Positions 1,260 to 62,700 of a stretch of DNA of 64,000 nt are shown here, piece by piece; the stretch's first letter is position 1; each line of letters starts with the position of its first letter. The DNA is from Amanita rubescens (lineage: Eukaryota > Basidiomycota > Agaricomycetes > Agaricales > Amanitaceae). Where the stretch lies: contig WION01000014.1 of the NCBI GenBank assembly GCA_015039365.1, positions 434,001-498,000 of the forward strand, written 5' to 3'. A program made the position numbers and the translations under genes. Below the pieces are notes generated by a model that saw nothing but the letters and a program-made list of their open reading frames with translations, did no database searches and was not told the DNA's origin.

Positions 1260-3700
1260 TTAACTAAGGCTGGATATCCTATCCAACAAAACCATTGGTT
1301 CTACCGCGCCATCACTTCTCTAAAATATCAAAAGGGTTCCCAAGACATTCAATAAAGGAACTAATAGAGAAGACCGGTGGTGTAGACTTGTAACATCACC
1401 CCTATTAAATATTGACGTTGATGTTATTTTGCCCTTCGTAGTACTCGTAGACGACGGGATAGGCGTTCTGGTCGGTAATAGATTTGTCCAATTCAAGGCA
1501 ACTCCAATGGGCTCGATACGCTATTCCCCAATGTCAAACAAAATCTTCGAGTGTAAGGAAGACCCTACATCGAATGCTGCTTTCAGTTGCGGATAAAACT
1601 TTATAGCCTCCAACATTGTGAAGTTGCTAAGCTCGTGTGTCAAGAATATGGGGCCTATCTGTAATCATAATTGGAATTAAGTGTATGGAAGAGGACGAGG
1701 CGCCATACAGTATTGAACCGATTCGAGACGGCGTCATTAATAAATTGTTGATAATTGGCATCAATATCAGCGGCGGTAACACCGCGCACGCCGAAACGCC
1801 AATCTTCTGAATCATAGCCCCACATAATCGTCCGCAGACCTAGCCCATTGGCAATGGCCCGAATGCGGTCGTCAACGTCGCCGTATGGTGGCTAGTGTAA
1901 GGTCAATCGAATGACCTCAGATATTGCGTGAGCTAGTTACCCGCCAGCACGTCGGCGTTATACCAGTCACTAACTCGATTGCTTGCATCTGAAAATCGTA
2001 TGAGCTAGCGTTATTCAGACGGTAATTTGAGTTACACCTATGTCGTCATCAGGTTAAACGGAGCCGGAGCACATTTGCATCACGTACTATAGTATAGTTC
2101 GGCAAATACATCCTCACTAGTGAACGCGGTCACTACGATACGCTTTGAACAAGGATAGGTGAGATTGTAATCCGGATTCTTACTGTAATGGTGTGACCAG
2201 GTATCTGCGACCGTAAACACCCCACTAGCTAGCAAATAAGGAGTTTACTCACGGGCACACACTTCATGTCCTGACCATCCCATCTGTGTTACTCTCAAAG
2301 CAATTGGCGAAGAAATTAACTTACCATCAGCAGGGGCTCTCTGTGCCTCAAGTGGCCAATCCATGACATTGCTACCGATATAAAACATTGCTGTGGAAGA
2401 AATCCATCAAGAAGACATCATAGTAGGAATTGTCTGACTAACTGGCTCTCTGGTTATTATTGGATAGAAAATCGTAAAACGCGTTATGTGAGCAATTTGG
2501 TCCGTCATCAAAGCCGTATCCCAGCGTGCGTGGCTGACAACCTGTAAGAAGGGTAATGTATACATCAGATAAATTTCCAAACCTCCGGGAGTTGATAGAC
2601 GTCTTGGGGCAAACCCTGATATTTCGGAGTTACACATCCATTAAATGACCACCAGCAGTCAGGATCGCTCCGTGGATACGACCGAAAAGTGCCCGGAGAG
2701 TTCCCAGTTATCGTGCCCTTGCATACAAGGTTAGTAGACGTGGGGACCTTGCTGGAAACGCGTCACCTTAACAGATATATTTGGAATATTGCCGGATATG
2801 GAATTCCACAAGTCGCGTGCGGTATCGTCGTTCGGTAGAATTGACGCGGGGTGCCAAATGGGAGGGAATAACGACAGACTATTCGTGACGAGAGAATACG
2901 AATACGGCTGGCATTCTACAGCACCATCTACAAATACGTCAAAGGGTCAAAATTACAATGTGCGAAATTGCTAATGCGCATACCGCTTATAGCAGCCTCA
3001 CCAGCTTCCGTTGTGCGGTTGTAGGCGAGACTTAGTGGAAAAAGCAACGCAGAAAGAATGAGCCCAGCCCGCTGCATTGTCACCAATGGCGTGTCGCGTT
3101 AACTACAAATACCAAGGAGAATGCGGGGGAGGTTGGGGGGTCAGAACGACTTAGGGGAAGAGTAGGTGAGGTTCATGAAGAGTCGCTTAAAACCGCACTG
3201 ACCGTCTTCGATCATTGCCACAGTGGGATATTGCGTGTATCCATGCGGCTAATTATGAGTCTAGCGTGATTCCGGGTTATCGGCGCTGGCTATAGACGTT
3301 GGGAATAAGTTGAGTCTGCCATGCACCCGTACCTCTGTTTGGGCTGACATTTGCTCCTAACTTAATTTTGACGTAATGAACCCAAGGCCAGCAGTCGTGT
3401 GTTGAAGGCGGATTTAGCCCGTGATAAAATCCCCTAGTTATAGCATTGTCAGTGAAGAATCGAGACGTGGCCATTCGGAGCCGTCATGTATAACGCATCA
3501 GCTTTAGGTGTTCACAAAAAGAGCCGCGCATTCCATTTCTAGACATATTGACTCCTGACTTGTATGTGTATTTGATAAATAACGATAATACTAAGACAAG
3601 ATAAAGCACCTTGCAAGATGATGACCCGGGGGATAAGATATGTCGCACACATCTGCAGATTTGATGCGTAATTCTGGGATGTCAAGGACCCAGAACGACG
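1260..3700. other. Intergenic, no gene seen
   Basis: No open frame over about 80 codons and no recognisable domain. Several GT...AG pairs occur but do not link frames into a plausible protein. Probably non-coding or fully decayed. Confidence 0.5.
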
Positions 3701-25728: not shown

Positions 25729-27637
25729 TTAGATATCAAAGAAAGGCCTCTCGTTATTCTGCTGCTGCTGAGCGAACGGGTTGTGGTGGGAACCTCCAGT
25801 TCGCTGAGCCAGGATGGCACGTCCGGCGTCAGTTTGGCCGTACCTGGAAGCCAAGAGTCAGAAACGCGCACTTCTCCATGCCCCAAAATCACGAACCTCA
25901 GTGTACCAATGTTACCGAAGGTATCTTGGCCATCATCGCGATTCGCAAACAGGTTTGCGAGATGTTGCTCATGTTCTGTGGCTTCTTTTCTTACTTGGAC
26001 ATTGACGGCAGGGTGAGGACTCTGGCGAAGTTGAGATGAAGGTGTCGTGGAGGTCGACAATGTGGATAGATTAGATGTGGAATGGGTGTCGTAAGTTCCG
26101 TGCAGATTAAATTGCGGTTGCTGTTTCTGAGTAGGTTGAGGGGATGGATTAAAGGACGATGGCGTCCCAGTTGGTTGGGGCGGAGCGAATGGGTTGTTTG
26201 ACCTGCCAGAATCCGTCAGCTGGGATCCACAGGCAATCGTGTTAGTTACTGACCCAAATCCAGTGGGCTGTGCAGAAAGCTGTTGCGCTTGTAAAAATAG
26301 ATTCTGGTGTTGCTGTTGTTGTAATTGTTGCTGTTGTAACTGTAGCCGCTGCAGTTGTTCTTGTTGTTGTTGCATCTGGAGCAACTGTTGCTGGCGTAAC
26401 CATTCTTCCTGCTGCGCTTGTTGTTGTGCCTGCTGTTGTGCCTGCTGCTGTTGAAGGAGGAACGCTTGTTGTTGACGCAGATACTCAGCCTATGACGTGG
26501 GTCAGGGTCACGAAGGTAGGCCTATCATTGTAACATACTTGAGCGGCTTCTTGTTCAGCTTGTTGTTGATACGGGTTGAACGACGTGAACTGAGTTTGGA
26601 CAGCAGTGAATTGAGGCTGTATCTGCGTGAGCTGAGGCTGCAATCCGACTGCGTAGGGTGAAGGGTCTGAGAAGGGGAAAGAGTTTGATGTCGAAGTCGG
26701 CGAGCTACTATCAAAATGGTTGAGCCATGATTTCGACCAAGTTAATAACGGACTCACAGTTGATTTTGCTCGTCAAACAGGGCGGCAGCATTGGAACTAT
26801 CCACGGCTTCTTTTCTACGTCTCTCCTCCTCCTCGCTGAGCTTGATGGCCCGTTCAACGTCTCTGTCCTCCGCTGCCCTCAGTTCTTCCGCTGCATGCGA
26901 TTTCTTGCTTTCTTCAATAGCACGCTTCAGATCTTCTTCATCCCGGTTAGGTCTCTTACTCGCAAGAGAGCCAGAGGGAACGGCTCCATTTTGTCTATTT
27001 GCGTTCTCGTCATCTTCATATCCATGGTCGTTCTCTAGGCCGATGTCGCCACCACCACGAATCATCCGATCGCGCATTTGCGCTCTCTGCCGCCGAGCCT
27101 CCCGCAGTCGTGACTCGTCCATCAAAAGCGCGGTGATGTCTTTCGCTTTTTGTCTGACGTTTGCACCTTGGTCTTTGCCGTCCTCATCGATGTACTGGAA
27201 CTCTTTGAGCGTCTTGATTATGTACAAATTATCGCGGAAATAAATGACGACATTCTCCGAACCCTGATGCAAGCAATAATCGAGTACTGTCAAGCTCTAA
27301 GTGAAAATCAGTATGTTCGCCAAGTATGACGAGAACCGGAGCACCTTGAATACATGTCGCCAATTCTTGCCCTTGTCATTCAGCCGCTTATCGAGCATTT
27401 CCATGATCTCAACAAAGTCAGTTCTGAATGTCAGAAAGCGGATCAGAGAGGGTGAGGTGATAGATAAGTTTGGTCACTCAACTGGTTGTACGTCAGCTGG
27501 GCGATTTCGTTCATCTGAGTTCCCGATGGGCCCCATGGGTCATTAGACGTGGCATCGCGGACCTTTGCCTGCGTATCCGAGTAACCTTTGGTGTAGTTTT
27601 TTGCCACTCGAAGGGCACCTTTCCCGAAGTGCTGCAT
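25729..27637 (-). CDS. ENT1/2-like: Epsin (ENTH-domain endocytic adaptor)
   Basis: Six exons (27637-27483, 27423-27345, 27296-26758, 26707-26539, 26489-25897, 25843-25729) join in phase to 549 residues. Residues 1 to about 140 form an ENTH domain: NDPWGPSGTQMNEIAQLTYN, RLNDKGKNWRHVFK, LTVLDYCLHQGSENVVIYF, KTLKEFQYIDEDGKDQGANV. Two ubiquitin-interacting motifs follow (EEDLKRAIEES near 197-210 and DVERAIKLSEEEE near 223-237). Then come a long Gln-rich stretch and NPF motifs (NNPFAPP; NPFAQQQQNN near the end) that bind EH-domain partners. The protein ends ERPFFDI. Epsins bind PtdIns(4,5)P2 at the plasma membrane and link ubiquitinated cargo to clathrin coats. The final intron splits the LRYGQ region and is needed to reach the NPF tail. 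The gene looks complete. Confidence 0.95.
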
Positions 27638-36196: not shown

Positions 36197-37512
36197 TCAA
36201 CGTTCACCACATTCCTTAATCCAATCCTGTACCATTTTCGGTGAAATCCCCACTATATCTAACTCCTTCCTAAACTCCCGCCTGATCTCGTCCCTTCCGT
36301 CGTCGTCATGGCGTGTCTCACCAAGTTCCTTGTCAAAGACCAAACGTAGCTTCACCTTTTCCCAGTTCTCCCAGCACTCCACCCTGACCGGATCCGTATC
36401 TCCTGGGGCAAGTGGCTCCTCTTCTGTAATCTCTGGACCAAGCAGGAACTGTGGGTACGTGTCTTCCCTGTGGGGTCGAGTACCGACACACTCCCAGTCG
36501 ACGATTCCCGTAATTTGGTGTGTTGCCGGGTCGACGAGGATATTGCGAAGAGAAAGGTCGTGATGATGCAATGCAAAATTACGGTGCTGAGATGGGAAGA
36601 GTGCAAAGAGAATCGGTTGGAGCTTGTCCAACGCCTGAATAATGTTTTCCGCATCCTCGGCGAGGTCCTTGTCAAAGTCGCTATGTAAACGGGCGTCTGG
36701 CGATAGTAGTAGCTTCATGTCTTCCAGCTCCGAAGCAGCTAGTGCGGCGATATACTCTGTATCGTTGGAGTACGGTCCGAGATCCCTAGGTACACGCAGT
36801 TTGCGCCCCCCAGCAAACATGTAGGGTGTGACGAGAGGACCGAGGACATATTTCTCATCCTCCACGCGTAACACGCGAACTGGGGCGTTGAACGTATCGA
36901 TCTCTTCACGGAAATAGAGAGTTCCAATCCCAGTGAAGCACCGTCGGAGATCTCGAAGTTGGCTCACATAGCCCACGACGGACCTCGTCACCTTATTCTT
37001 AGTTTCTGGGTCAATGTCACTCCAAGCATCTGCCAGAGCAACCCCTGGGATCTTTTCCATGAGGGTCCACTCGTAGCCAACCTCATTATCTGAGGTAGAG
37101 CTGTGGGCAATGATGCGTGGTACTGGAATAGAAGTATGTTCCTGTAGGTAGGAAAGGGTCGTGACCTCGCCTGCGGTCTTGAAGAAAGGCTCCACGGGCG
37201 CAGTTGCGCGGAATATGTACTGAGGGGTGCCGAGGGTGCTACTACCGCTATTGGAAACGGTGATAGTGAACAATTTATTGAAGGCCCCTTCTGCGAAGAA
37301 GGTTGCAGAAATGTGATCGCCCGCAGAGAGCTGGAGGTGCTTCCTGGCAACTGATTCGATCGCGGTAACATTGGGAGGCGAGAGCCAGCGCGGAATGGGA
37401 CCCCAGATGCCAGATTCCCAGATAAATCGGGGCTGGTACACGAACTGGCAGGTAAGGCAAAGTTGAGGTATAATCTAGAGCTGATACTCACCGTCGTCTG
37501 TGGACTTGACAT
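36197..37512 (-). CDS. APH-family phosphotransferase
   Basis: Two exons (37512-37492, 37444-36197) join in phase to 422 residues. The first exon encodes only MSSPQTT. The domain has a nucleotide-binding N-lobe (GAFNKLFTITVS, IFRAT with the next lobe's E in GEVTTLSYL) and the Brenner-type catalytic loop HHHDLSLRNILVD, followed by ITGIVDWE, which supplies the metal ligands. This is the aminoglycoside/choline-kinase-like fold widely duplicated in fungi. The physiological substrate is unknown, and antibiotic resistance should not be assumed. The gene lies between ERG13 and the duplicated ERG13 tail, converging on ERG13. Confidence 0.88.
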
Positions 37513-43523: not shown

Positions 43524-44510
43524 ATGCGTTTCTTTAGGACCTTTGCCTCAGCTTTTGTTAAGTCGGGGACGCAGGCCGCTGCCGTTGGAGTCCCAGGCGG
43601 CTTAGGAGGTGTCGGAGAGATCCTCTCTGTCATTATCATGCTGTCCGACAGCGTCCCCCAGAATAGGTACATAAGATACCTCTCATGGCGCGATTATTCT
43701 CTGATTGGTTTATATAGGGATGCTTCACGCAAGCTTGCAGAGAGATGCCAGCAACTGCACAAGGCTTTGGAGCAGTACGAGCAAATGCCTTTGCCTGATC
43801 GCACAGTTCGGTACCGGGCTGACGTGTTTGAGTTCGTTGTCTGTCTCCCGACGATACAATTTTACTCACGAAGTGTAGATGTCTTAAGAAGGTCAAGGAT
43901 ACGATGGAGAAATGGTCCGGGCAAGGCTGGGTTCGCATGTTAGTAAATCAAGGGAAATTTGAAAGGGACATCGATGATTGCAATAGCAAAATATCTGACT
44001 GTTTTACAATCTTCATGGTGAGTACTATGCGTCTGGATTGTGAAAGGGATGGTGATTTTTAGACTGCCTCCCAAATGGAATTACTGGCACAGTGCCAGGA
44101 AGAAGTCAAAAAAGGGAATAAAGGCCTGACAAAGAGTCGTAATGGCGACTGTCATCGAGATCGTCAAACGAGTCTCTTTAGAGAGTTTGACGCTGTCAAA
44201 TTCAGTATTCACGACCCGACGGGTAATGACAAATATGGTTATAGCCTCGGCCCCTTTTTTTTTTATGTAGTCGGAGGTACACGTTTCACGTTCCACTATA
44301 GAAAACAATTGGGGGCCGGGGCGGCCTGTTTAAGTTGTTTGTACTTGTATATACAGCGCTGTTCACATTGAGCTGGACTTGGTTGCTCACGAGGGTGGGA
44401 CTGCGCATCACCGTCTCAAGATATATCCTGCTCCTCGCGGATTCTGCGCCACTCGTATTTCAGGCCATCGAGAACCCAGATGGATTGTAGAGACCTGGGA
44501 GGACATATGA
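43524..44510 (+). CDS. Helical-domain protein, MLKL-NTD-like (copy B)
   Basis: Exons 43524-43666, 43718-43831, 43879-44017 and one from 44063 join in phase. The protein begins MRFFRTFASAFVKSG, has VPGGLGGVGEILSVIIMLSDSVPQNR, SRKLAERCQQLHKALEQYE, LKKVKDTMEKWSGQGW and FERDIDDCNSKISDCF, then MELLAQCQEEVKKG. The order (amphipathic N-terminus, small-residue loop, then several long helices) resembles the four-helix N-terminal domain found before kinase or STAND NTPase modules in mushroom proteins and labelled MLKL-NTD-like; this assignment is by pattern only. Here it stands alone. A last exon from about 44357 encodes HEGGTAHHRLKIYPAPRGFC and ends ETWEDI; the donor joining it is not certain. Membrane or cell-death roles are known for related domains and are inference here. 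Confidence 0.65.
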
Positions 44511-46857: not shown

Positions 46858-49800
46858 CTATCCATCAATATGAGTTGGCACCTGCCTATGGAGTAATGTG
46901 ACAAAGTCACCATGATGACCAGAGTGCATAAAGTCAGGAGTAATGTTAGTCTTCAGCTTCTGGACATAGCCTTTTTGCTTGTATTGATCCAAGGCCTCTG
47001 TGACTGATGGCAGAAATGGTTTATTGATCCAAAAGGATAGCTTGGCAATGATAATAATTGCTTGAGAGTTTAAGCACAAATACAGTAAATGAAAGAAATA
47101 ATTTACAAATTAAGATCTGGAAATCAGTTGTCTCATTCTGCAATGGCATCAGTTGTTTACTACACCCCAGAAAAGAACAAAAAAAACCTTGATTGCAAAG
47201 TTCCTTTCCTTGTCTCTAAACATGAACTTGCTGGCTGCAAAGTCCCTTCGCTTGTCTCCAAACATGGAGCAAAGTTCACCCTAGTACTTATCAGATAGAA
47301 TAAAGCATCCAATGTATCATAGACCTACAGGCTAGCATGCAAACCAATATCAACATCAATACCTCATGAACCAGCACCACTCACCTGGAAATCAAGGAAA
47401 GTGATATAAGTGAGACCAATGATCACATGAGGTGGGAGTGGGCCAGCTGAAACCTTACAATCTGTGATGATAATGTGACTAATGTAAAAGGAAGACATGG
47501 AAAAGACATGGCAACATGCTCACTTTCTGATGTATGTATGTATGTACATAGGGTATAATGATATATTGAACATTAGTGAATTGAAGAATACTGAGAATGT
47601 ACTAAGATCAGAAAATTTGCAATGTCACTCACAAGCTGTTGGTCAAAGGAAAAGAAGTCATGAGACTGCCTGTTACAAAATGTGCAATGTCATTCACTCC
47701 CTGTCAGTCACAGGAAAAAATGTGAAGAGACTGCCTTGGAGAATATACAATGGAGTCACTCACTTGCTATCATTGGTCATAGGATTGAAAGAGCTTTTCA
47801 CAAAATCTGCAACATTGGCACTCACCAACTGATGGCCATAGAAAAAGATGGATGAGACTGCCTTTCTCAAAATGTGCAATGTCACTTACTTCCTGTTGGC
47901 CATAGTGATGAGACTGCCTTTCATAAAATGTGCAATGTCACTCACAGACTGTTGATCATAACAAAAATATGATGAGAGACTGCCTTTCACAAAATGTGCA
48001 ATGTCACTCACTTGCTGTTGGTCATAGGAAAAAATCTGATGAGATTGCCCATCACAAAATGTGCAATGTCACTAACTCGCTGTTGGTCATAGGAAAAGAT
48101 GCAATGAGATTGGTTTTTTCACAAATTGTGATAATGTCACCTACAGTCTGTTGGTCATAGGAAACAATAATGAGACTGCTTTTGAGTCATAAAATATTGT
48201 CACTCACTTCCTGTTGATTGGATGTGATGAGACTGCCTTTCACAAAATGTGTAAAGCCACTTACAAGCTGTTGGTCATAGAAAAAGATGGAGTCATGAGA
48301 CTTCCTTTCACACAATGTGCAATACAGTAACTTACAGACTGTTGGTCATAGGAAAAGATGTGATGAGACTGCCTTTCATAAAATGGGTAACAGTGTCACT
48401 CACAGACTGAGTTGGTTATAGTACAAGACTGCCTTTCACAAAATGTGTAATGTCACTCACAAGCTGTTGGTCATAAGAAAAGATGTGATGATACCACCTT
48501 TCACACAATGTGGAATGACAGTCACTCACTCCCTGTCAATGATAGGAAAAGATGTGATGAGATAGCTGTTAACAAAATGTGCAATGTAAGTTATTCACTT
48601 CCTATTGGTTATAGGTCATGAGGCTGCCTTTCACAAAATGTGTGGCAATGTCACTCACAGACTGTTGATCATAGGAAAAGATGTGATGACACTGCCTTTC
48701 ACAAAATGTGCAATGTCACTCACTTGCTGTTGGTCATAGGAAAAGATGTGATGACACTGCCTTTCACAGAATGTGCAATGTCACTCACTTGCTGTTGGTC
48801 ATAGGAGAAAATGTGATGAGACTGTTTTTCACAAAATGTGCATTGTCACTTGCTCGCTGTTTGTCATAGGAAAAAATGTGATGAGACTGCCTTTCACAAA
48901 ATATGTAATGTCACTTGCATACTGTTGGTAAAAGATGTAATGAGACTGCCTTTCACAAAATGTGCAATGTTACTCACAGACTGTTGGGAGTTGTTGGAAA
49001 AGATGTGATGAGATTACCTTTCGCAAAATGTGTTACTGTGTAATATTACTCACTTGCTGTTCATTGTAGGAAGAGACTCTGTCTTGTCTTAAATTGTGCA
49101 ATGTCACTCACAGACTGTTGGTGATTGGAAAGATGTGATGAGACCTTTTTTCACAAAATGTCCAATGTCACTCACAGACTGTTGATCATAGAAAGATGTG
49201 ATGAGGTTGTCTTTCACAGATTGTGCAATGTCACTCACAAGCTGTTGGTCATAGGAAAAGATGTGATGAGACTGCCTTTCACAAAATATGTAATGTCACT
49301 CACTTCCTATTGGTCATAGAAAATATGTGATGAGACTGCAGCACTGCCTTTCACAAAATGTCCATTGTCACTCACTTGCTGTTGGTCATAGGAAAAGATG
49401 CAGTGAGGTTGTCTTTCACAAAATGTCCAACATCACTCACATGCTGTTGATTATAGAAAAAGGTGTGATGAGAGTGCCTTTAACAAGGTATCCAATGTCC
49501 CTCACTTGCTGTTGGTCATAGGAAAAATGTGATGAGACTGCCTTTCACAAAATATCCAATATTACTTACTTCCTGTTGGTTGTAGGATATTGAAGGTGAG
49601 TAATGAGACTGTATTTTACAAAATGACCAATGTCACTATGTTACTCACAGGCTGTAAGTCACAGGAAAGCATGTCATGAGACTGCCAAGTTTCACAAATG
49701 TGCAATGTCACTCACAAACTATTGATCATAGGAATAGGTAGATGTCATGAGACTGCCTTTAACAAATGCCCATCCAATGTTACTATGTATGTCACTCACA

Positions 49801-52800
49801 AACTGTTGGTCATAGGAAAAAATTGTGATGAGCCTGCCCTTCACAAAATGTCCAATATCACTCACAAGCTGTTGGTCATAGAAAAAGATGTGATGAGACT
49901 GCCTTTCACAAAATGTCCAATGTCACTCACTTGCTGTTGATTATAGGAAAAGATGTAACAAGACTGCCTTCACAATATATGGCAGCAATGTCACTCACAA
50001 GCTGTTTTTCATAGGAAAAATATGATAAGACTGCCTTGAACAAATGTCCTATGTTGCTATGTCACTCACTCGCTGTTGGTCATAGGAAAAGATGTGATGA
50101 CTCAATTGCCTTTCACAAAATATGCAACCATGTTACTCACCTGCTGTTGGTCATGGGAAAAGATGAGATGAGACAGCCTTTCACAAAATGTGTTGAAAGT
50201 CACTCACTTCCTGTTGGTCATAGCCGGGAAAGTACTTCCTTTCACATAATGTGCAATGTCACTTACTCTCTGTTAATCATAAGGAAAGGCTCGGATGTGA
50301 TGAGACTGCCTTCCACAAAATATGCAATGTTACTCACATGCTATTGGTCATAGGGTAATGTGTGATGAGACTGCCTTTCACAACATGTGCAATGCCACTC
50401 ACTTCCTGTTCATTGTAGGAAGAGATATCTTTCTCAAATTGTGCAATGTCACTCACAGACTGTTGGTCATAGTAAAAGATGTGGTGAGACTGCCTGTCAC
50501 AAAATGTGCAATGTCACTCACAAACTGTTCATCATTGGAAAATATGTGATGAGACTGCCTTTCTCAAAATGTGCAATGTAACTGACCCCCTGTTGGTCAT
50601 AGGGAAAGATGTGATGAGACTGCCTTTCACAGAATGTGCAACTTGAATGTCACTCACTTGCTGTTTATGATAGGAAATTAAAGATGTGATTTCACAACAT
50701 GTGCAATGTCACTCACAGACTGTTGGCCATAGCAACAGATGTGATGAGATTGCCTTTCACAAAATGGCCATGTCCCTCACATTCTGTTGGTAAAAGATGT
50801 AATGAGACTGCCTTTCACAAAATGTAAAATGTGCAATGTCACTCACTTCCTGTTGGTCATAGTAGGAAAAGATGTGATGAGATTGCCTTTCACAAATTGT
50901 GCAATGTCACTCACAAGCTGTTGGTCATAAGAAAGATGTAATGACACTGCCTTTTACAAATTGTGCAATGTCACTCACTTGCTGTTGGTCATAGGGAACA
51001 ACATGATGATACATACTGCCCATCACAAAATGTGCAATATCACTCACTCGCTATTGGTCATGGGATATGATGAGAGTGCCTTTCACAAAATGTGGAACAC
51101 AGTCACTCACTCCCTATTGGTCATAGGAAAAGATGGGATGAGACTCCCTTCCACCCAAATCTTCAATGTTGCTCACATCCTGTCAGTCATAGGGAAACAA
51201 TACATATGTAGGACACCTTTTCAGGAATATTTGCAATGTTACTCACATACTGTTGGCCATAGGCAAAATTTTGGTGAGGTCATCTTTTGAATAACTAAAT
51301 CAGCTTGACATGCTGCTAACCACCTATGTTTTAGTATAGGAAGACATGTGATTTTGCTGCTTTTCACAAAACTTGCAATATCACTCACAATCTGTAGAAC
51401 AAATGAGTTTGTCCAAATTGCCCTGTAGCAAAATGGCCATCATCACTCACTTCCTTTTAGAATGGAATTAGCACCTTGAATTTGGAAAAAAGAATGCACT
51501 GCCACTGACTCTCTTTTGCTATAGTGTTCATATGATGAATTCACATCTCACAAAAGGATCACATACATCCTGTTTGTCTTGGAATAGCTTGTGAAGAGGC
51601 TTTGAAAAGGAGAAATATTTACTGTCTGTTGTTTTGGGACAAGATGTAATGCTTATGAGCAAACAGGAAGGAAATGTCACTTACTTTCTATTATTAATTC
51701 AATGAAGTTGAGATTCTCTTTCAGATAATTATATGTCACCCAACTTTCTATCATTCATTGAGTTATGTCTGATAAGCTGCACAAAAACCAATGTTGCTTA
51801 CTTTCTTTAAGCAGGTCAGATGTGGTGTGAAGCAGTGTTGTATTACTCACTCCCTGTCCATGAGAGACTGGATTAACAACTCTGCTTACAATGATAGATC
51901 AACTCACTTGCTATTGGTCATATGATGCACCATAGGACCATTTACAAAAAAATTCAAAATTAAGTTGGCATGGCACTCACTTCCTGTAGTAGATTATGAC
52001 AACACTGTTGATCACAAAAGGAAGCATTACTCACAAACTGTTGTCATGAAATGATACATATATGTATCAGATCTATGCTAGTTCAATGTCACTTACCCAC
52101 TGATATCAATATCATCAGATCTTGCATCAAGAATATGGTGACTTGAACTAACCTGTGTTTCACCCAGTTGTTCATTGATCATCTGAATCATGACTAATCT
52201 TGTTTTCATGTGAAGGCATTGGAGTGTTACTTACTTCCTGATGAACTTTGAAAGTATTTATCATTCCATATGAAGGCCACCTACTGCCCTGTCCACCTAT
52301 TACCATTTAAAGTTTTCTGTGCTGATGTGCAGTCTGACAAGAATACACACCCAGAAATGTGGAAATTTTGAAAAAACTACAAGAATGACTTGATCCCATG
52401 TCCACCAATCTTTGTGTTTCAGAACATGTCTGAAGTTTGAACAATGTTGATGTTAATAAGTAACATGTTGAATGTTTAAGTGACCCTCACTGAAGTGCAG
52501 ATTTAACACAAAGGTCAAGATTATTCATCTGTGTTGAAACAAATAGTTGATGTATGCTGTCATCATCTATTACATCAGCAGTTTTCTGAGTTAATTCAGC
52601 ACAATTATTGTCCAGTAAATCCATGTCTATGAAACAATATTAATGCCATCTTTTGGCAAAAAGAAAATTCTTACCTTCCAATCGTACATATGCCTTGGGA
52701 GGATATTTGGTGTTCAAAACTTTAGGAAGATATGCTGTCTGAAAAGTGGTTTCAGCAACTTCCCTGGCTCTCCCCCACTTATCTTCATCATGTGCATCAG

Positions 52801-53655
52801 TCAAGTTGACAAATTCACTGGATATTTGACCATCAAATTTAGTGAATATAACCACCAAAGGAACTGTTAAGGAAATATTTACTGGTCAGCACACTGTAAA
52901 ATTAGTATTTAGCAATTTACCTTTGCCTGTTCCTTTATTAAAGAATTTGAGTTCTGCAGGTAGGATGGGACGAGGACTGTCCATGGGTATGCAGTACCTA
53001 CAGGAAGCCAGGTCAGCCAGTACTGTAAAGAGATAGAGCAAGATACCAAATTGCATGCAACTGGTTTTTCAGCTCAGTTTCTGCAGACTTCTTTTCAATG
53101 AACCTCCAAGCAGCATCCAATTCCTCAGTTGAACCTGATTCAAAACCCTGAGAGTCATGGAAGATAAAGTTACTTCCAGGGTATGTAATTTGATGCTCAA
53201 TTTCATGCAGGCCTCTCTGTTAGAGTCATTTGCATGTGAATAAGTCCATACATCATCATCTAACTCACCTCATGTGATGGCACCAAATGAATAGGAGACT
53301 GTACAAGCTGATTACCTGCAAGAAATTCAAAATCAAAGGAAGCACAAAACTCAAACTGACTGTAGTACCACTCTTGTCATATATGATGGCAATTGTCCCC
53401 TTTGCTACACCACAAACCTTCTCAAGGATGGTTGTCTTGCCTGCATTAGCCCTCCCAATAAGAAGAATGTGAAAGTGCGGGCATTGATAGCGTTCCCTGA
53501 GCTCTTGAACATGTGTCTCAGAGTCTGTATCTGCAGTGATATGTGTCAGCCAAGGATTAGCAATGCTAGATCACACAAATTAGCCTACTACTCAAAGAAC
53601 TTGGAGGTGCACCACTAGTTGTAGTAGCTGCCATGACTGAAGATGAAGTACTCAT
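46858..53655 (-). CDS. G-domain GTPase with 74 single-codon exons
   Basis: Normal exons at the 5' end (53655-53592, 53530-53372, 53315-53269, 53216-53047, 52997-52921, 52863-52675, 52626-52491, 52429-52351, 52296-52285) encode a GTP-binding domain. It has P-loop GRANAGKT (residues 47-54), HDSQGFE (DxxG), NQLHAIWYCIPM and TKFD, then PPKAYVRLE, HQLFVSTQMNNLDLC and a helical WWTWDQVILVVF tail. A 3-nt exon (52237-52235) and a 30-nt exon (52182-52153, MINEQLGETQ) follow. Then come 73 exons of exactly 3 nt between 52099 and 47329, all in phase 0 and none a stop. Exons 47280-47188, 47137-47107 and 47060-46858 finish a conserved-looking C-terminus (IIIIAKLSFWINKPF...). The model gives 87 exons and 503 residues with every junction in frame. 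P-loop proteins of this kind are expanded in mushrooms; their role is unknown. The outer exons are secure; splicing of the 3-nt exons is unproven. Confidence 0.7.
47329..47331 (-). other. Last single-codon exon of the series (CCT)
   Basis: On the minus strand: AG, CCT, GTAGGT. It is the lowest-coordinate member of the 3-nt exon series. Its neighbours upstream are ATT (47461-47459) and AAA (47526-47524), lying in introns that are not copies of the tandem unit. Confidence 0.5.
47384..47385 (-). promoter_or_regulatory. Recursive splice site (zero-length exon)
   Basis: Within the 127-nt intron 47458-47332 the minus strand reads TTTCCAG directly joined to GTGAGT. An acceptor fused to a donor with no exon between is the form of a recursive splice site. 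It sits where another 3-nt exon would be expected by spacing. Confidence 0.45.
47633..51249 (-). repeat. Tandem array of ~65-bp intron-plus-codon units
   Basis: 56 recognisable units in one orientation. On the minus strand each unit runs from a GTGAGTGACATTG donor region through ...GGCAGTCTCATCA... to a CCTATGACCAACAG acceptor (62 nt), then a variable 3-nt codon before the next donor. Neighbouring units differ by point changes and small indels inside the 62-nt part. The consensus period is 65 bp, not a multiple of three, so no long open frame crosses units on either strand. The donor is GT in all but two units (48856-48854 and 48921-48919), which use GCAAGT, the known functional GC variant. 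All acceptors are AG. Confidence 0.9.
51250..52237 (-). other. Diverged part of the single-codon exon series
   Basis: Fourteen further 3-nt exons (from 51323-51321 up to 52099-52097), plus one at 52237-52235, are separated by 46-70 nt introns that are no longer alignable to the array consensus. Each still has GT...AG ends and exactly 3 nt between AG and GT. The 30-nt exon at 52182-52153 interrupts the series in phase. One donor (GTTGGG at 51744) is weak. Confidence 0.6.
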
Positions 53656-54500: not shown

Positions 54501-54735
54501 CGATCAAATCCTATAACAGCTGTTCTTGATACCCTGTATTGCGGTCTTCAGATCACCCTATATTCGCAAACATGCAAATCTGTACGCGCTCGTCATCGCG
54601 TTGCATGATCATGCGCCATGGACATTGTGGGTGTCTATCTTGAAAAAAAGCTGTGGAAAAGCTGTGACAGGACTCGAGGGCGCTAAATTGCATACCTTTC
54701 CTTTGCGTAGATTCCACGACTCGAAGCCTGCCACC

Positions 54736-55484
54736 ATGCGTTTCTTTCAGACCTTCGCCTCAGCTTCTGTAAAGTCAGGCACTCAGGCCGCTGCCGTTGC
54801 AGTCCCAGGCTTAGGAGGTGTCGGAGAGATTCTCTCTGCCATTATCATGCTGTGTGACAGCGTCCCTCAGAACAGGTACATAAGATACCTCTCACGGCGC
54901 AATTATTCTCTGACCGATTTACATAGGGATGCTGCCCGTAGGCTGGCAGAGAGATGTCAGCAACTGCACAAGGCTTTGGAGCAGTACGAGCAAACGCCTT
55001 TGCCTGATCGCACAGTCCGATATAGGGCTGACGTGTTTAAGTCCGTTATCTGTCCCTCGACGATAAAATTTTACTCACGAAGTGTAGATGTCTTAAGAAG
55101 GTCAAGGATACGATGGAGAAATGGTCCGGGAAAGGCTGGCCTCGCATGTTAGTAAATCAGGGGAAATTCGAAAGGGACATCGATGATTGCTGTAGCAAAA
55201 TATCGGACTGCTTTACAATCTTCACGGTGAGCACTTTGCGTCTGGATTGTGAAAGGGATAGTGTCATGATTTTTCAGACTGCCTCCCAAATGGAATTGCT
55301 GGCACAGCGCCAGGAAGAAGTCGAAAGGGGGAAAAAAGGCCTGAAAGAGAGTCGTGATGGCGACTATCATCGTAAAACGAGTTTCTTCTTGAGAGAGTTT
55401 GACGCTGTCAAATTCATGTCGGCCCGGCTAGTGACAAATATGGTTATGGATAGCCTCGGAGCGCCCTCGGCCTTTTTTTTTTAA
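54736..55484 (+). CDS. Helical-domain protein, MLKL-NTD-like (copy C)
   Basis: A close paralogue of copy B with the same intron positions (donor after CAGAACAG, after GTGTTTAA and after ATCTTCACG). It starts at the ATG in CCACCATGCG: MRFFQTFASASVKSG, then VPGLGGVGEILSAIIMLCDSVPQNR, ARRLAERCQQLHKALEQYE, LKKVKDTMEKWSGKGW, FERDIDDCCSKISDCF and MELLAQRQEEVERGKKG. After REFDAVKF it diverges and stops in a T-rich run (SAFFF). It lacks the ETWEDI exon of copy B, so it may be 3'-truncated. The 200 bp upstream are also shared with copy B, showing duplication of gene plus promoter. Domain naming is by pattern, as for copy B. Confidence 0.65.
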
Positions 55485-59700: not shown

Positions 59701-62700
59701 GGTCAAGTGGTCCTCACAGTGGTCTATCTTTCGTTTTGGCTGTTGTTCTCGTACTGTGCGTCTCTGTTCCTTGTATAGGCAACATAACTGACCGGTGGAA
59801 CAGTTATCATTCTGCAGATGTTTATTGCCGTTATTAACGAAAACTTTCAAGTGGCAGAAGAGATTAAGAAAAGTAAACAAGCATCGAGTTATTGGGCGAT
59901 GCAGAGAAGCGAAGAAGCTAGGCCAAATTGGATGCGCAAGCTTAACCCATACAGATGGATCAAGGCGAATCCTGTTACCGTCAAAGTGGACAATCTACCT
60001 TCGAACCTTGTCCTGCCGATGCAAAAATCATTGGTGCAGGACTATAATCGCGTTCCGGTGTTTGAACGGTCCAAGAGTGTTTGTATTCCGTGTGTTTTGG
60101 GGCTGTGGAATTGTTTTATTGACGATCGTTTTAGAAATCGCAAAGGCCGTCCAAGCCAGGGCATTATGTGTCCAGATCGATAACGGCCCTTCATCGGTTA
60201 TTTGTTGGGGAGACACATTCGAATGATATTCCGTTAAAGAATCTGCGGCATGCTCGGGAGGAGACAAGCGCAGAAAGATTGATGCAGGATGAAGATGAAC
60301 CAGACCGTAATCTGTACGTGATTGCTTCACAATGCGCGGTGTTTTGTCTGATTCGGAGATAGGGCGCTATTGGCTGCCATCAACGGGGCAGGGGCGAGCA
60401 GCGAAGATCTCAATGACGTTTTGTACGAGCGAAGAGCACAAAAGGCTGATTTCATTCGTAATCACCCTTCGTACGACGAGACGTTTTGGATGTTTTCGCA
60501 AAATAATCCACTTCGGAAGATGTGTCAAAAGCTGGTGCAGCCTGCAAATGGGGAGCGGCTATTTGGCACGCCATGCTCTCCCGTTGCTCATCCGATCTTT
60601 CAGCTCGTTTTGTTGTTGGTCGTACTGGGAGGTATAGCTGTAGAAGGTGTCGCGACGCCCCTCTATCGGCGTGCGTGGTATGCGGAGAATGGAACGACCC
60701 GCGGTTCTTGGTTCGATATCACCAATACGGCATTTGGGCTCACCTTGGTCGTCGAATTTCTGATCAAGATTATCGCCGATGGATTCTTGTTCACCCCAAA
60801 TGCATATATCAAGAGCGGATGGAACATATTGGACTTGTTCATCATGACCGGTGTTCTCGTCAGCGTCGCGACTGGTCTTGTGTTCATTGGTGGTCTCAGC
60901 AGATTGACGAGGGCACTCAGGGCACTTCCAGCTCTCAAGTTGATCACGCTGATCGACAAGATGCGGTATACCTTCCAGTCATTGCTTATCGACGGCGCAC
61001 CAGGTATCCTGCACGCTGCCCAGCTCTGTATTCTGTATATGATACCCTACGCTATCTGGGGTCTGAACATCTTTGCTGGGAAAATGAACGAATGTACGGA
61101 TACCGCCGCCCATGGGATGTCCGACTGCATATACGAATACAACAACAATGTCATTGGCAGTGCTTTCGGCTTCACAGCTCCTCGCGCTTGGAACAATCCC
61201 GCGCCATCGACAGTCTTTTCGTTTGATTCGTTTCGAGATTCGTTGTTGATCCTTTTCGAGATTGTATCTTTGGAAGGATGGATAGACGTGTTGAACGTCG
61301 CGACCAGCATCACTGGGACAAATTTACAGCCTCAGATGCATTCATCACCGGCCAACGCAATCTTTTTCGTAATCTATAATTTGCTAGGATGTGTTGTTCT
61401 TTTGACGATATTCGTTAGGTGGGTTTTGTTTTGTCGTTCTTTGAAGGTCAAGCATACTTATGGTGGCGGCTTCGTAGCATCATCATCGGTAATTTCAGTG
61501 CGCGGACTGGGATGGCGTACCTCACCGGACCTCAGAGGGAGTGGATCGACTTGCAAAAGCTTATCAAGCGCCAACGACCTTCAAAAAGGCCAAAAGTCAA
61601 ACCGACGAACCCGATTCGGGCTTGGTGTTTTGACCGCGCTGTGCAGAAGCACGGATGGTGGTCTAGAGGGATAACTGTCATGATCGTTTTCCATATCATC
61701 GCGTTGATGTATGTTCGTTAATTGCCATCGATCAACCCATCTAACAAGAGAAACAGGACGCAGACCTACAATTCCGCCGGGAAGAAAGACCGGATTCTCA
61801 GTGAGTTTGGTATTCTCTTCTTTTCAGTTGTTTGACCGTCACACTTAGACTACTTTTTCCTGGCCTTTACTGCCATTTACATTGCGGACGTTGTGGTAAG
61901 GTCTTTTGGCCTGGGCTGGTTGAGCTTCAGAGCGAACGGCTGGAACATCTTTGATGTCTTTGCATCCACCGGAAGTTTCATTACAACTGCGATAGTGCAA
62001 TCTGGATACACTGGATATGCTATTGAGCAGTTGCAAAAGCTTTTCTTGGTCAGCGTTGCCTTCAAACTCGTTCAGAGGGCGGACAGCCTGAATATGCTCT
62101 TCAAAACATCCGTGTACGTTTATGCTTGCTGTTATTAAACATGACGTTGACTTTTTCTTACCAGCGCGAGTTTGCCAGCAATTTTAAGTTTGGTTGGTCT
62201 ATGGGCGGTGTTCTTCATCTTTTTCGCCATCCTGTATCTGGAAGTGTTCGGCATGACCAGGTGGGGCACAGCCGAAACTAGATACCAAAACTACACCTCT
62301 CTTGCGAGATCTATCGTGATGTTGATCTTTATGAGCACAGGGTACGTAGTGACTTGCGGATAATGCGGTTAGAGATTCATACATCACTTCAGGGAAGGCT
62401 GGAATCAATATATGCACGATTTGTGGGTACATATTTGATTACATCGTCCATCCGTTCTGATGCGTCTTAGCACACTGGAATACCCTCATTGCACTGAAGA
62501 AGGAGAAACTGACTGTGGTAGTGCCGCTTGGTCGTTCTCGTTGTTCATTGCGTGGAACTTGTTGAGTATGGTAAGCTCAGTATATTATTCGACTTGCCTG
62601 AGCGCTCAATCTTCCTTCTAGTACATCTTTGCCAACTTGTTTACCGGTCAGTATCGCCTGCTAAATTCTTTCTTTGATTACTGAACGAATTCTCAGGTAT

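Follow-up and report, generated by a model that had tools for sequence, protein, structure and literature searches.

The G-domain gene and its one-codon units

The window analysed here, a stretch of 64,000 nucleotides (nt), belongs to contig WION01000014.1 of the Amanita rubescens assembly GCA_015039365.1 (positions 434,001 to 498,000, forward strand). On its minus strand lies a G-domain gene, in which the GTPase exons and the C-terminal exons are separated by a long array of units consisting of an acceptor AG, three bases, and a donor. An initial annotation, made from the letters alone, had described 74 such units, two of them with GC donors. Our recount gives 74 AG-NNN-G(T/C) units from 52237 to 47329 (72 GT and 2 GC donors, the latter at the exons 48921 and 48856), and likewise reproduces the reported triplet counts (GAA 11, CAA 11, TCT 9, CTT 7) and the absence of TAA, TAG and TGA among the 74. 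The unit spacing, reported as 46-130 nt, amounts to 49-138 nt. A 30-nt exon (52182-52153) sits inside the 138-nt spacing, with one single-codon exon before it (52237, GAA) and 73 after it.

In the same annotation the units were read as single-codon exons in phase 0. The flanking exons indeed keep one frame through all 74 units, and this reading is supported by intron-free open reading frames (ORFs) of relatives and of a sister gene, in which such exons are fused without loss of frame at either end of the array (see below). We consider it probable (at roughly 80%) that the 74 units are one-codon exons of the A. rubescens gene, which are spliced in order into a variable linker. The linker is predicted to be a fast-changing segment that connects the GTPase domain to a conserved C-terminal domain, and we infer that the middle of the array is translated as well.

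A gene model of 87 exons was built accordingly (Table 1). Its coding sequence (CDS) of 1515 nt forms a single uninterrupted frame of 504 amino acids (aa) with one stop, which is terminal, and 74 of the 87 exons measure 3 nt. All 86 introns are GT-AG or GC-AG, with lengths of 46-127 nt and a median of 61.5 nt; read unspliced, the same frame meets a stop after 11 codons. The public model F5887DRAFT_1271767 of Amanita rubescens (P0001), which is the top protein match to the GTPase part, terminates at NNLDLCVKSALQ, short of the array.

Table 1. Predicted gene on the minus strand of the window, listed from its start codon onwards.
Feature	Position	Strand	Remarks
Whole predicted gene, ATG to stop	46858..53655	-	87 exons, 504 aa
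Exon 1 (MSTSSSVMAATTTSG...)	53592..53655	-	start as in P0001, whose splicing then diverges
P-loop exon, GRANAGKTT	53369..53530	-	sequence of gene model
GTPase exon (NQLVQSPIHLVPSHE)	53269..53315	-	missing from P0001; homologous segment present in P0002
GTPase exon with HDSQGFESG	53047..53216	-	gene model
GTPase exon (YCIPMDSPRPILPAEL)	52921..52997	-	gene model
GTPase exon with TKFD	52675..52863	-	gene model
Exon ending NNLDLCVKSALQ	52491..52626	-	last exon of the NCBI model P0001
Exon HVLKHKDWWTWDQVILVVFSKFPHFW	52351..52429	-	segment also in P0007, P0048, P0002
VDRA exon, 12 nt	52285..52296	-	spliced alignment and gene model
First single-codon exon (GAA, E)	52235..52237	-	E of P0048 fits; P0007 without residue
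MINEQLGETQ exon, 30 nt	52153..52182	-	aligned to VTNEQLSETK (P0007), MANKQLSEAQ (P0048)
17 single-codon exons W F E Q G K K K T D R E I V Y D G	51111..52099	-	spliced alignment of P0007, P0048
Hypervariable core, 53 single-codon exons between diverged copies of the 62-nt consensus intron	47633..51050	-	
Single-codon exon TAT, GC donor	48919..48921	-	
Single-codon exon CGA, GC donor	48854..48856	-	
Last three single-codon exons K (47526), I (47461), P (47331)	47329..47526	-	
93-nt exon GELCSMFGDKRRDF...	47188..47280	-	gene model
Exon (NE)TTDFQILI	47107..47137	-	in-frame acceptor 6 nt further in (47131) suggested by P0122, P0130
Last exon IIIIAKLSFWINKPFLPSVTEALDQYKQKGYVQ...HIDG and stop	46858..47060	-	gene model, paralog matches

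The gene carries the motifs GRANAGKTT, DSQG and TKFD of a TRAFAC-type G domain, which we take to be the P-loop and other G motifs. Searches of Pfam and of PDB sequences returned weak G-domain matches only: MMR_HSR1 stays below its cut-off for P0007 (16.1 versus 21.9 bits), and PF01926 is precomputed for P0001. No NACHT or NB-ARC domain was found by Pfam at E up to 1 in P0007, P0048, P0053, P0071, P0121 and P0122. The predicted fold of P0007 has a mean predicted local distance difference test (pLDDT) score of 70, with residues 322-386 below 50. The last exon of the model aligns to the C-terminal domain of the relatives P0053, P0071 and P0121.

Intron-free relatives and the family of arrays

The ORFs of P0007 and P0048 (source label jgi) lie on contigs of 1446 and 1903 nt. 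Spliced alignment places both on the same uninterrupted run of 17 single-codon exons in the window; in each case 13 of 17 residues are identical, and the scores are 153 for P0007 (shuffled peptides: mean 94.8, maximum 116) and 148 for P0048 (mean 85.8, maximum 93.5). The aligner is free to choose among many AG and GT sites, for which the shuffled peptides serve as control. An earlier alignment with a stiffer intron penalty yielded fewer single-codon exons; the milder, shuffle-controlled penalty was adopted afterwards. Matching stretches of the window measure about 2.4 kb (P0007) and 2.3 kb (P0048) when unspliced. Both contigs are shorter than this and can hence hardly be unspliced genomic DNA. 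At the other array end, the single-codon exon L (47635) and the last three single-codon exons are colinear with the residues LKIC of P0122 (score 75.0; shuffles mean 63.7, maximum 69.5). In P0122, LKIC-DELFSMFG is preceded by a segment of about 50 residues that is array-like (+13.6 bits), with its limits drawn by eye. Its own locus was not found in the genome (best match 90%; 150 of 225 candidates scored).

P0130, on a contig of 993 nt, is identical in sequence to L028, a sister locus of the window's gene, over three downstream exons. Of the ten micro-exons that it reads at the 3' end of the array, eight measure 3 nt, one measures 6 nt, and one measures 12 nt through use of a new in-frame acceptor. 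The peptide Q-L-Q-S-H-L-EA-G-(DQQ)E-L corresponds to CAA, CTT, CAA, TCT, CAT, CTT, GAAGCA, GGA, (GACCAACAG)GAA and CTT, where the first CAA, placed by the aligner at position 3141, was assigned instead to 3404 beside CTT. Missing introns and contig sizes suggest that these ORFs are likely cDNA. In the consensus intron of the arrays, an internal AG (GGCAG) leaves 30 stop-free nt (positions 33-62, SHHIFSYDQQ) ahead of the usual acceptor, and these residues occur exactly in P0130.

The gene belongs to a family. We examined 20 array loci (L009-L028, alleles included), among which L009 is the window's own copy; as several loci are near-identical, both haplotypes appear to be in the assembly, and the number of loci does not equal the number of genes. 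At least 65 match rows in the genome were obtained with the array DNA as query (40 of 200 candidates scored), at least 73 with the GTPase DNA (40 of 240), and at least 150 matched places with the C-terminal protein P0122 (150 of 225). Nineteen of the 20 arrays adjoin sequence of this GTPase, and the remaining one, L022, has the C-terminal exons of this gene. Counting the window's own copy, 17 of the 20 loci contain the last exon, with identities of 68-100%. Some paralogs also have single-codon exons that read L-K-I-C or similarly, and the 17-exon chain exceeds the listing threshold, whole or in part, in 19 of the 20 loci (L025 with the first seven exons, L014 without F; absent from L022).

The exact junction pattern ACCAACAG-N(0-12)-GTGAGTGACATTG has 1063 matches genome-wide versus 0 for the reversed control, and hence array units exceed chance. 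Among 1065 junction calls in the 20 loci, 1017 exons measure 3 nt, 16 measure 6 nt and 5 measure 9 nt (1038 in sum); a further 25 are not multiples of three and 2 have zero length. When L012 and L015 are left out, 952 of 957 calls in 18 loci are multiples of three (932 of 3 nt, 16 of 6 nt, 4 of 9 nt), and in the same loci 286 of the 854 introns of 45-80 nt deviate from 62 nt. None of 1064 codons in the 20 loci, 761 of them in 14 non-redundant loci, is a stop. Position-wise independence would predict about 61, an overstated figure since T-first, A-third sense codons are scarce too. In a single exact context, CAA or CGA occurs 423 times genome-wide versus one TAA or TGA, and CTA 17 times versus two TTA (Fisher test of 423:1 versus 17:2, P = 0.005, with rows that are not independent).

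Some side observations concern the same arrays. The codon alphabet is narrow, with A or T as third base in about 94% of the 1064 codons. The cores of L012 and L015 (C13, C749) combine near-identical introns of about 62 nt with exons of 0, 1, 2, 4 and 3 nt and may be freshly made or broken arrays. At C97:46348-58354, the array beside the GTPase is interrupted by about 8.5 kb, with the near-identical C108 copy being contiguous, which suggests a large insertion within the array.

The shared intron and proposed exchange between copies

One 62-nt consensus intron is common to all 20 arrays. In the window, nhmmer located 49 copies at 47636-51388 and none elsewhere (E up to 1e-3; solitary copies in the genome were not searched for). 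Eight arrays, several of them mutual copies, have introns that are 98-99% identical, with a nucleotide diversity (pi) of 0.006-0.022. Codon-position pi reaches 0.54-0.71 in seven of these eight and 0.23, 0.68 and 0.29 in L012, where 41 of 47 introns match the consensus exactly. L010 provides an internal control: all 68 introns have GCA at positions 29-31, and the exon carries 12 different codons. Older arrays, whose intron pi is about 0.11-0.19, show a lower ratio of codon to intron diversity (about 3-6).

Codon blocks and gene halves appear to be exchanged between copies. In L010, a block of 18 units is duplicated, codons together with their intron variants. Between L020 and L021, two neighbouring codons and 6 of 3191 intron bases are changed, and differences among L019, L020 and L021 fall in contiguous codon blocks. 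The gene bodies of C13, C254 and C228 are 0.8-1.7% apart, and aligned array codons differ in 26 of 40 (L012/L019) and 22 of 33 positions (L019/L023), with intron differences of 0.7% and 1.4%. Flanks may also disagree: L012 and L019 are 1.2% apart upstream of the array and 9.2% downstream, whereas L012 and L015 are 6.2% apart upstream and 0.1% downstream. Such discordance was flagged in 6 of 136 pairs, of which L014/L022 was dropped, its upstream parts not matching; the five retained pairs all involve L012 and maybe reflect one or two events. Together, block duplication, contiguous codon blocks and discordant flanks suggest that arrays recombine through their introns. We rejected simple tandem duplication as an explanation for all units, given the diverse codons in arrays with introns of 98-99% identity.

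Based on these data, we propose that the near-identical introns would act as homology tracks for recombination. Whole codons would be added, lost or swapped whenever any two units engage in unequal crossing-over or gene conversion, and the frame would be kept because exons have 3 nt and introns are in phase 0. Selection would purge out-of-frame units and maintain codon diversity. In its strongest form, the family would be a genome-encoded codon shuffler, in which about 1000 units exchange, each exchange yields a new in-frame peptide, and splicing serves as readout; we hold this wider claim to be possible, at somewhat less than even odds.

Several observations weigh against the reading of the array as a fully spliced and diversified linker. 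The source label jgi does not state a transcript origin, and among the intron-free sequences compared none covers the whole array and none stems from this very gene. No residue of P0007 corresponds to the exon at 52237, and the tail of this ORF past YDG is not array-like (-8.7 bits); P0048 becomes intron-like and then meets a stop. Both thus depart from the array pattern and end inside the array, which probably points to incomplete splicing being present as well. In P0130, an extra upstream acceptor adds 3 codons, and the first 16 residues are intron-like. P0048 and P0125 both list a contig of 1903 nt, P0094 and P0122 both one of 2135 nt; if each pair were one contig, the array there would be only partly spliced. 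L012 and L015 account for 21 of the 25 exons with lengths not divisible by three and also contain one zero-length exon. TTA and TCA are scarce as well (0 in 1064 codons; in the exact context TTA 2 and TCA at least 2), such that part of the stop deficit reflects a general shortage of T-first, A-third codons, and the absence of stops is weakened as a stand-alone proof of coding.

On the side of diversity, intron positions 29-31 vary in older arrays, too (L018 with 6 variants in 37 units, L024 with 8 in 23), and exon codon variants number 13 and 11 there, a weaker contrast than in the near-identical arrays. Exon and intron changes amount to 3.1% versus 4.8% in the older pair L017/L018 and to 8.0% versus 10.2% in L009/L014; a steady hypermutation of codons was rejected on account of these similar rates. 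L019 and L020, with bodies 1.7% apart, differ in only 4 of 42 codons. The predicted fold of P0007 resembles GTPases of the immunity-related (IRG) and septin types weakly, and helical periodicity of the array peptides was not found across the 13 loci tested, with the lowest P at 0.07; the pooled identity of residues peaks at offset 18 (z = 2.2).

Alternative explanations and related systems

One alternative is that a mobile 62-nt intron, akin to introners, repeatedly cut a low-complexity exon into codons, which would then predate the introns. A single consensus in arrays of every age, including the L012 introns that equal it, is in line with this, and so is the diversity of codons where introns are still 98-99% identical. 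The relative of P0121 (C72, C1) moreover gives a best spliced alignment with 69- and 33-nt exons beside the single-codon exons W, E, G and F (phase-0 introns only, without a shuffle control), and some one-codon exons may therefore be older than the arrays. Insertion leaves the exact 3-nt, phase-0 spacing unexplained, however. Furthermore, codons are mostly limited to those ending in A or T, the window holds no intron copy beyond the array, and paralogs 0.8-1.7% apart differ in most codons (26/40, 22/33), although another pair differs in 4 of 42. We consider such an origin unlikely.

Alternatively, the array might generate splice isoforms, with every mRNA picking its own subset of codons and many linkers per gene. 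Joining any array donor to any later acceptor retains the frame, P0130 shows an alternative in-frame acceptor together with intron-like residues, and P0007 has the missing residue at 52237. Yet P0130 has every one of the ten final micro-exons in the order of the locus, and P0007 and P0048 skip 0 of 17 after the 30-nt exon, although the sequences are too few to measure skipping. This appears distinctly improbable to us.

Coding could also be restricted to the two conserved array ends, with the core being an intron-like tandem repeat that is mostly skipped or retained. The stop of the NCBI model P0001 ahead of the array would agree with this, as would the ends of P0007 and P0048 within the array region and a frame that survives the skipping of any number of units. 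Against it stand exon lengths that are multiples of three in 952 of 957 calls though a third of the introns vary in length, the 0 stops in 1064 codons, and P0130 and P0122, in which core-type codons and the C-terminal domain share one frame; we give this account little credence. An assembly or consensus artefact can be set aside almost entirely: tandem repeats do assemble poorly and L012 and L015 contain odd exon lengths, but near-identical copies on separate contigs agree in their exons (0 differences in aligned units of L010, L011 and L013; L027 and L028 identical), errors would not stay within exons, and P0130 is concordant with L028.

Single-codon (3-nt) microexons of animals and plants are spliced, to our knowledge in isolated cases only. 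No paper on runs of single-codon exons was present among the matches listed in the open literature, a search that mostly does not reach subscription papers.

Micro-exon genes (MEGs) of Schistosoma have exons of mostly 15 nt, for which the abstract states a minimum of 3 nt and the main text one of 6 nt, and introns of 100 to almost 5000 nt (PMC10526429). The gene described here resembles them in its many tiny exons, mostly multiples of three, and in belonging to a family that is hard for automatic annotation (PMC10526429). Unlike in MEGs, there are 74 exons of exactly one codon, introns of about 62 nt copied from one sequence, and a fungal, GTPase-linked product; at 46-127 nt, with a median of 61.5 nt, the introns are not long as in MEGs. 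Introners and fungal introner-like elements likewise form families of near-identical spliceosomal introns with hundreds of copies (PMC4457414, PMC9860276). They sit in unrelated genes, whereas here about 1000 exact junctions (both haplotypes counted) stand head to tail, 3 nt apart.

In the WD40-repeat het genes of Podospora anserina (HET-D/E), repeats are homogenised both inside each gene and across the family, a few codons diversify and units are reshuffled by recombination (PMC1805685), and this pattern is similar to the present one. HET-D/E have a coding repeat as unit, are NACHT-domain genes and have a proven role in allorecognition (PMC1805685); here, a GTPase gene has units made of an intron and one codon. 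Because of copy number, codon diversity and this parallel with the Podospora het genes, we would guess that the variable linker might recognise self, partners or parasites, like other fast-diversifying fungal repeat families.

If spliced through as predicted, the gene would be a case of extreme fragmentation, with 74 one-codon exons and 86 introns per 1.5-kb CDS, and this across the family. Testable questions would include how the spliceosome copes with dozens of exons that lack the room for simultaneous binding of both splice sites, whether introns can come under selection as a recombination substrate, and how a genome can let peptides vary codon by codon free of frameshift risk. Gene prediction may lose such segments, as the public model ending ahead of the array warns.

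On the plus strand, opposite to the gene, two ORFs that resemble each other lie on either side of it (43524-43943 and 54526-55152; Pfam returned nothing at E up to 0.01). Further away, the window contains an ORF with an Ion_trans domain (60370-61671, plus strand), which is probably part of a large cation-channel gene, an ENTH-domain ORF (26757-27293, minus strand) and a phosphotransferase (APH) ORF (36200-37441, minus strand).

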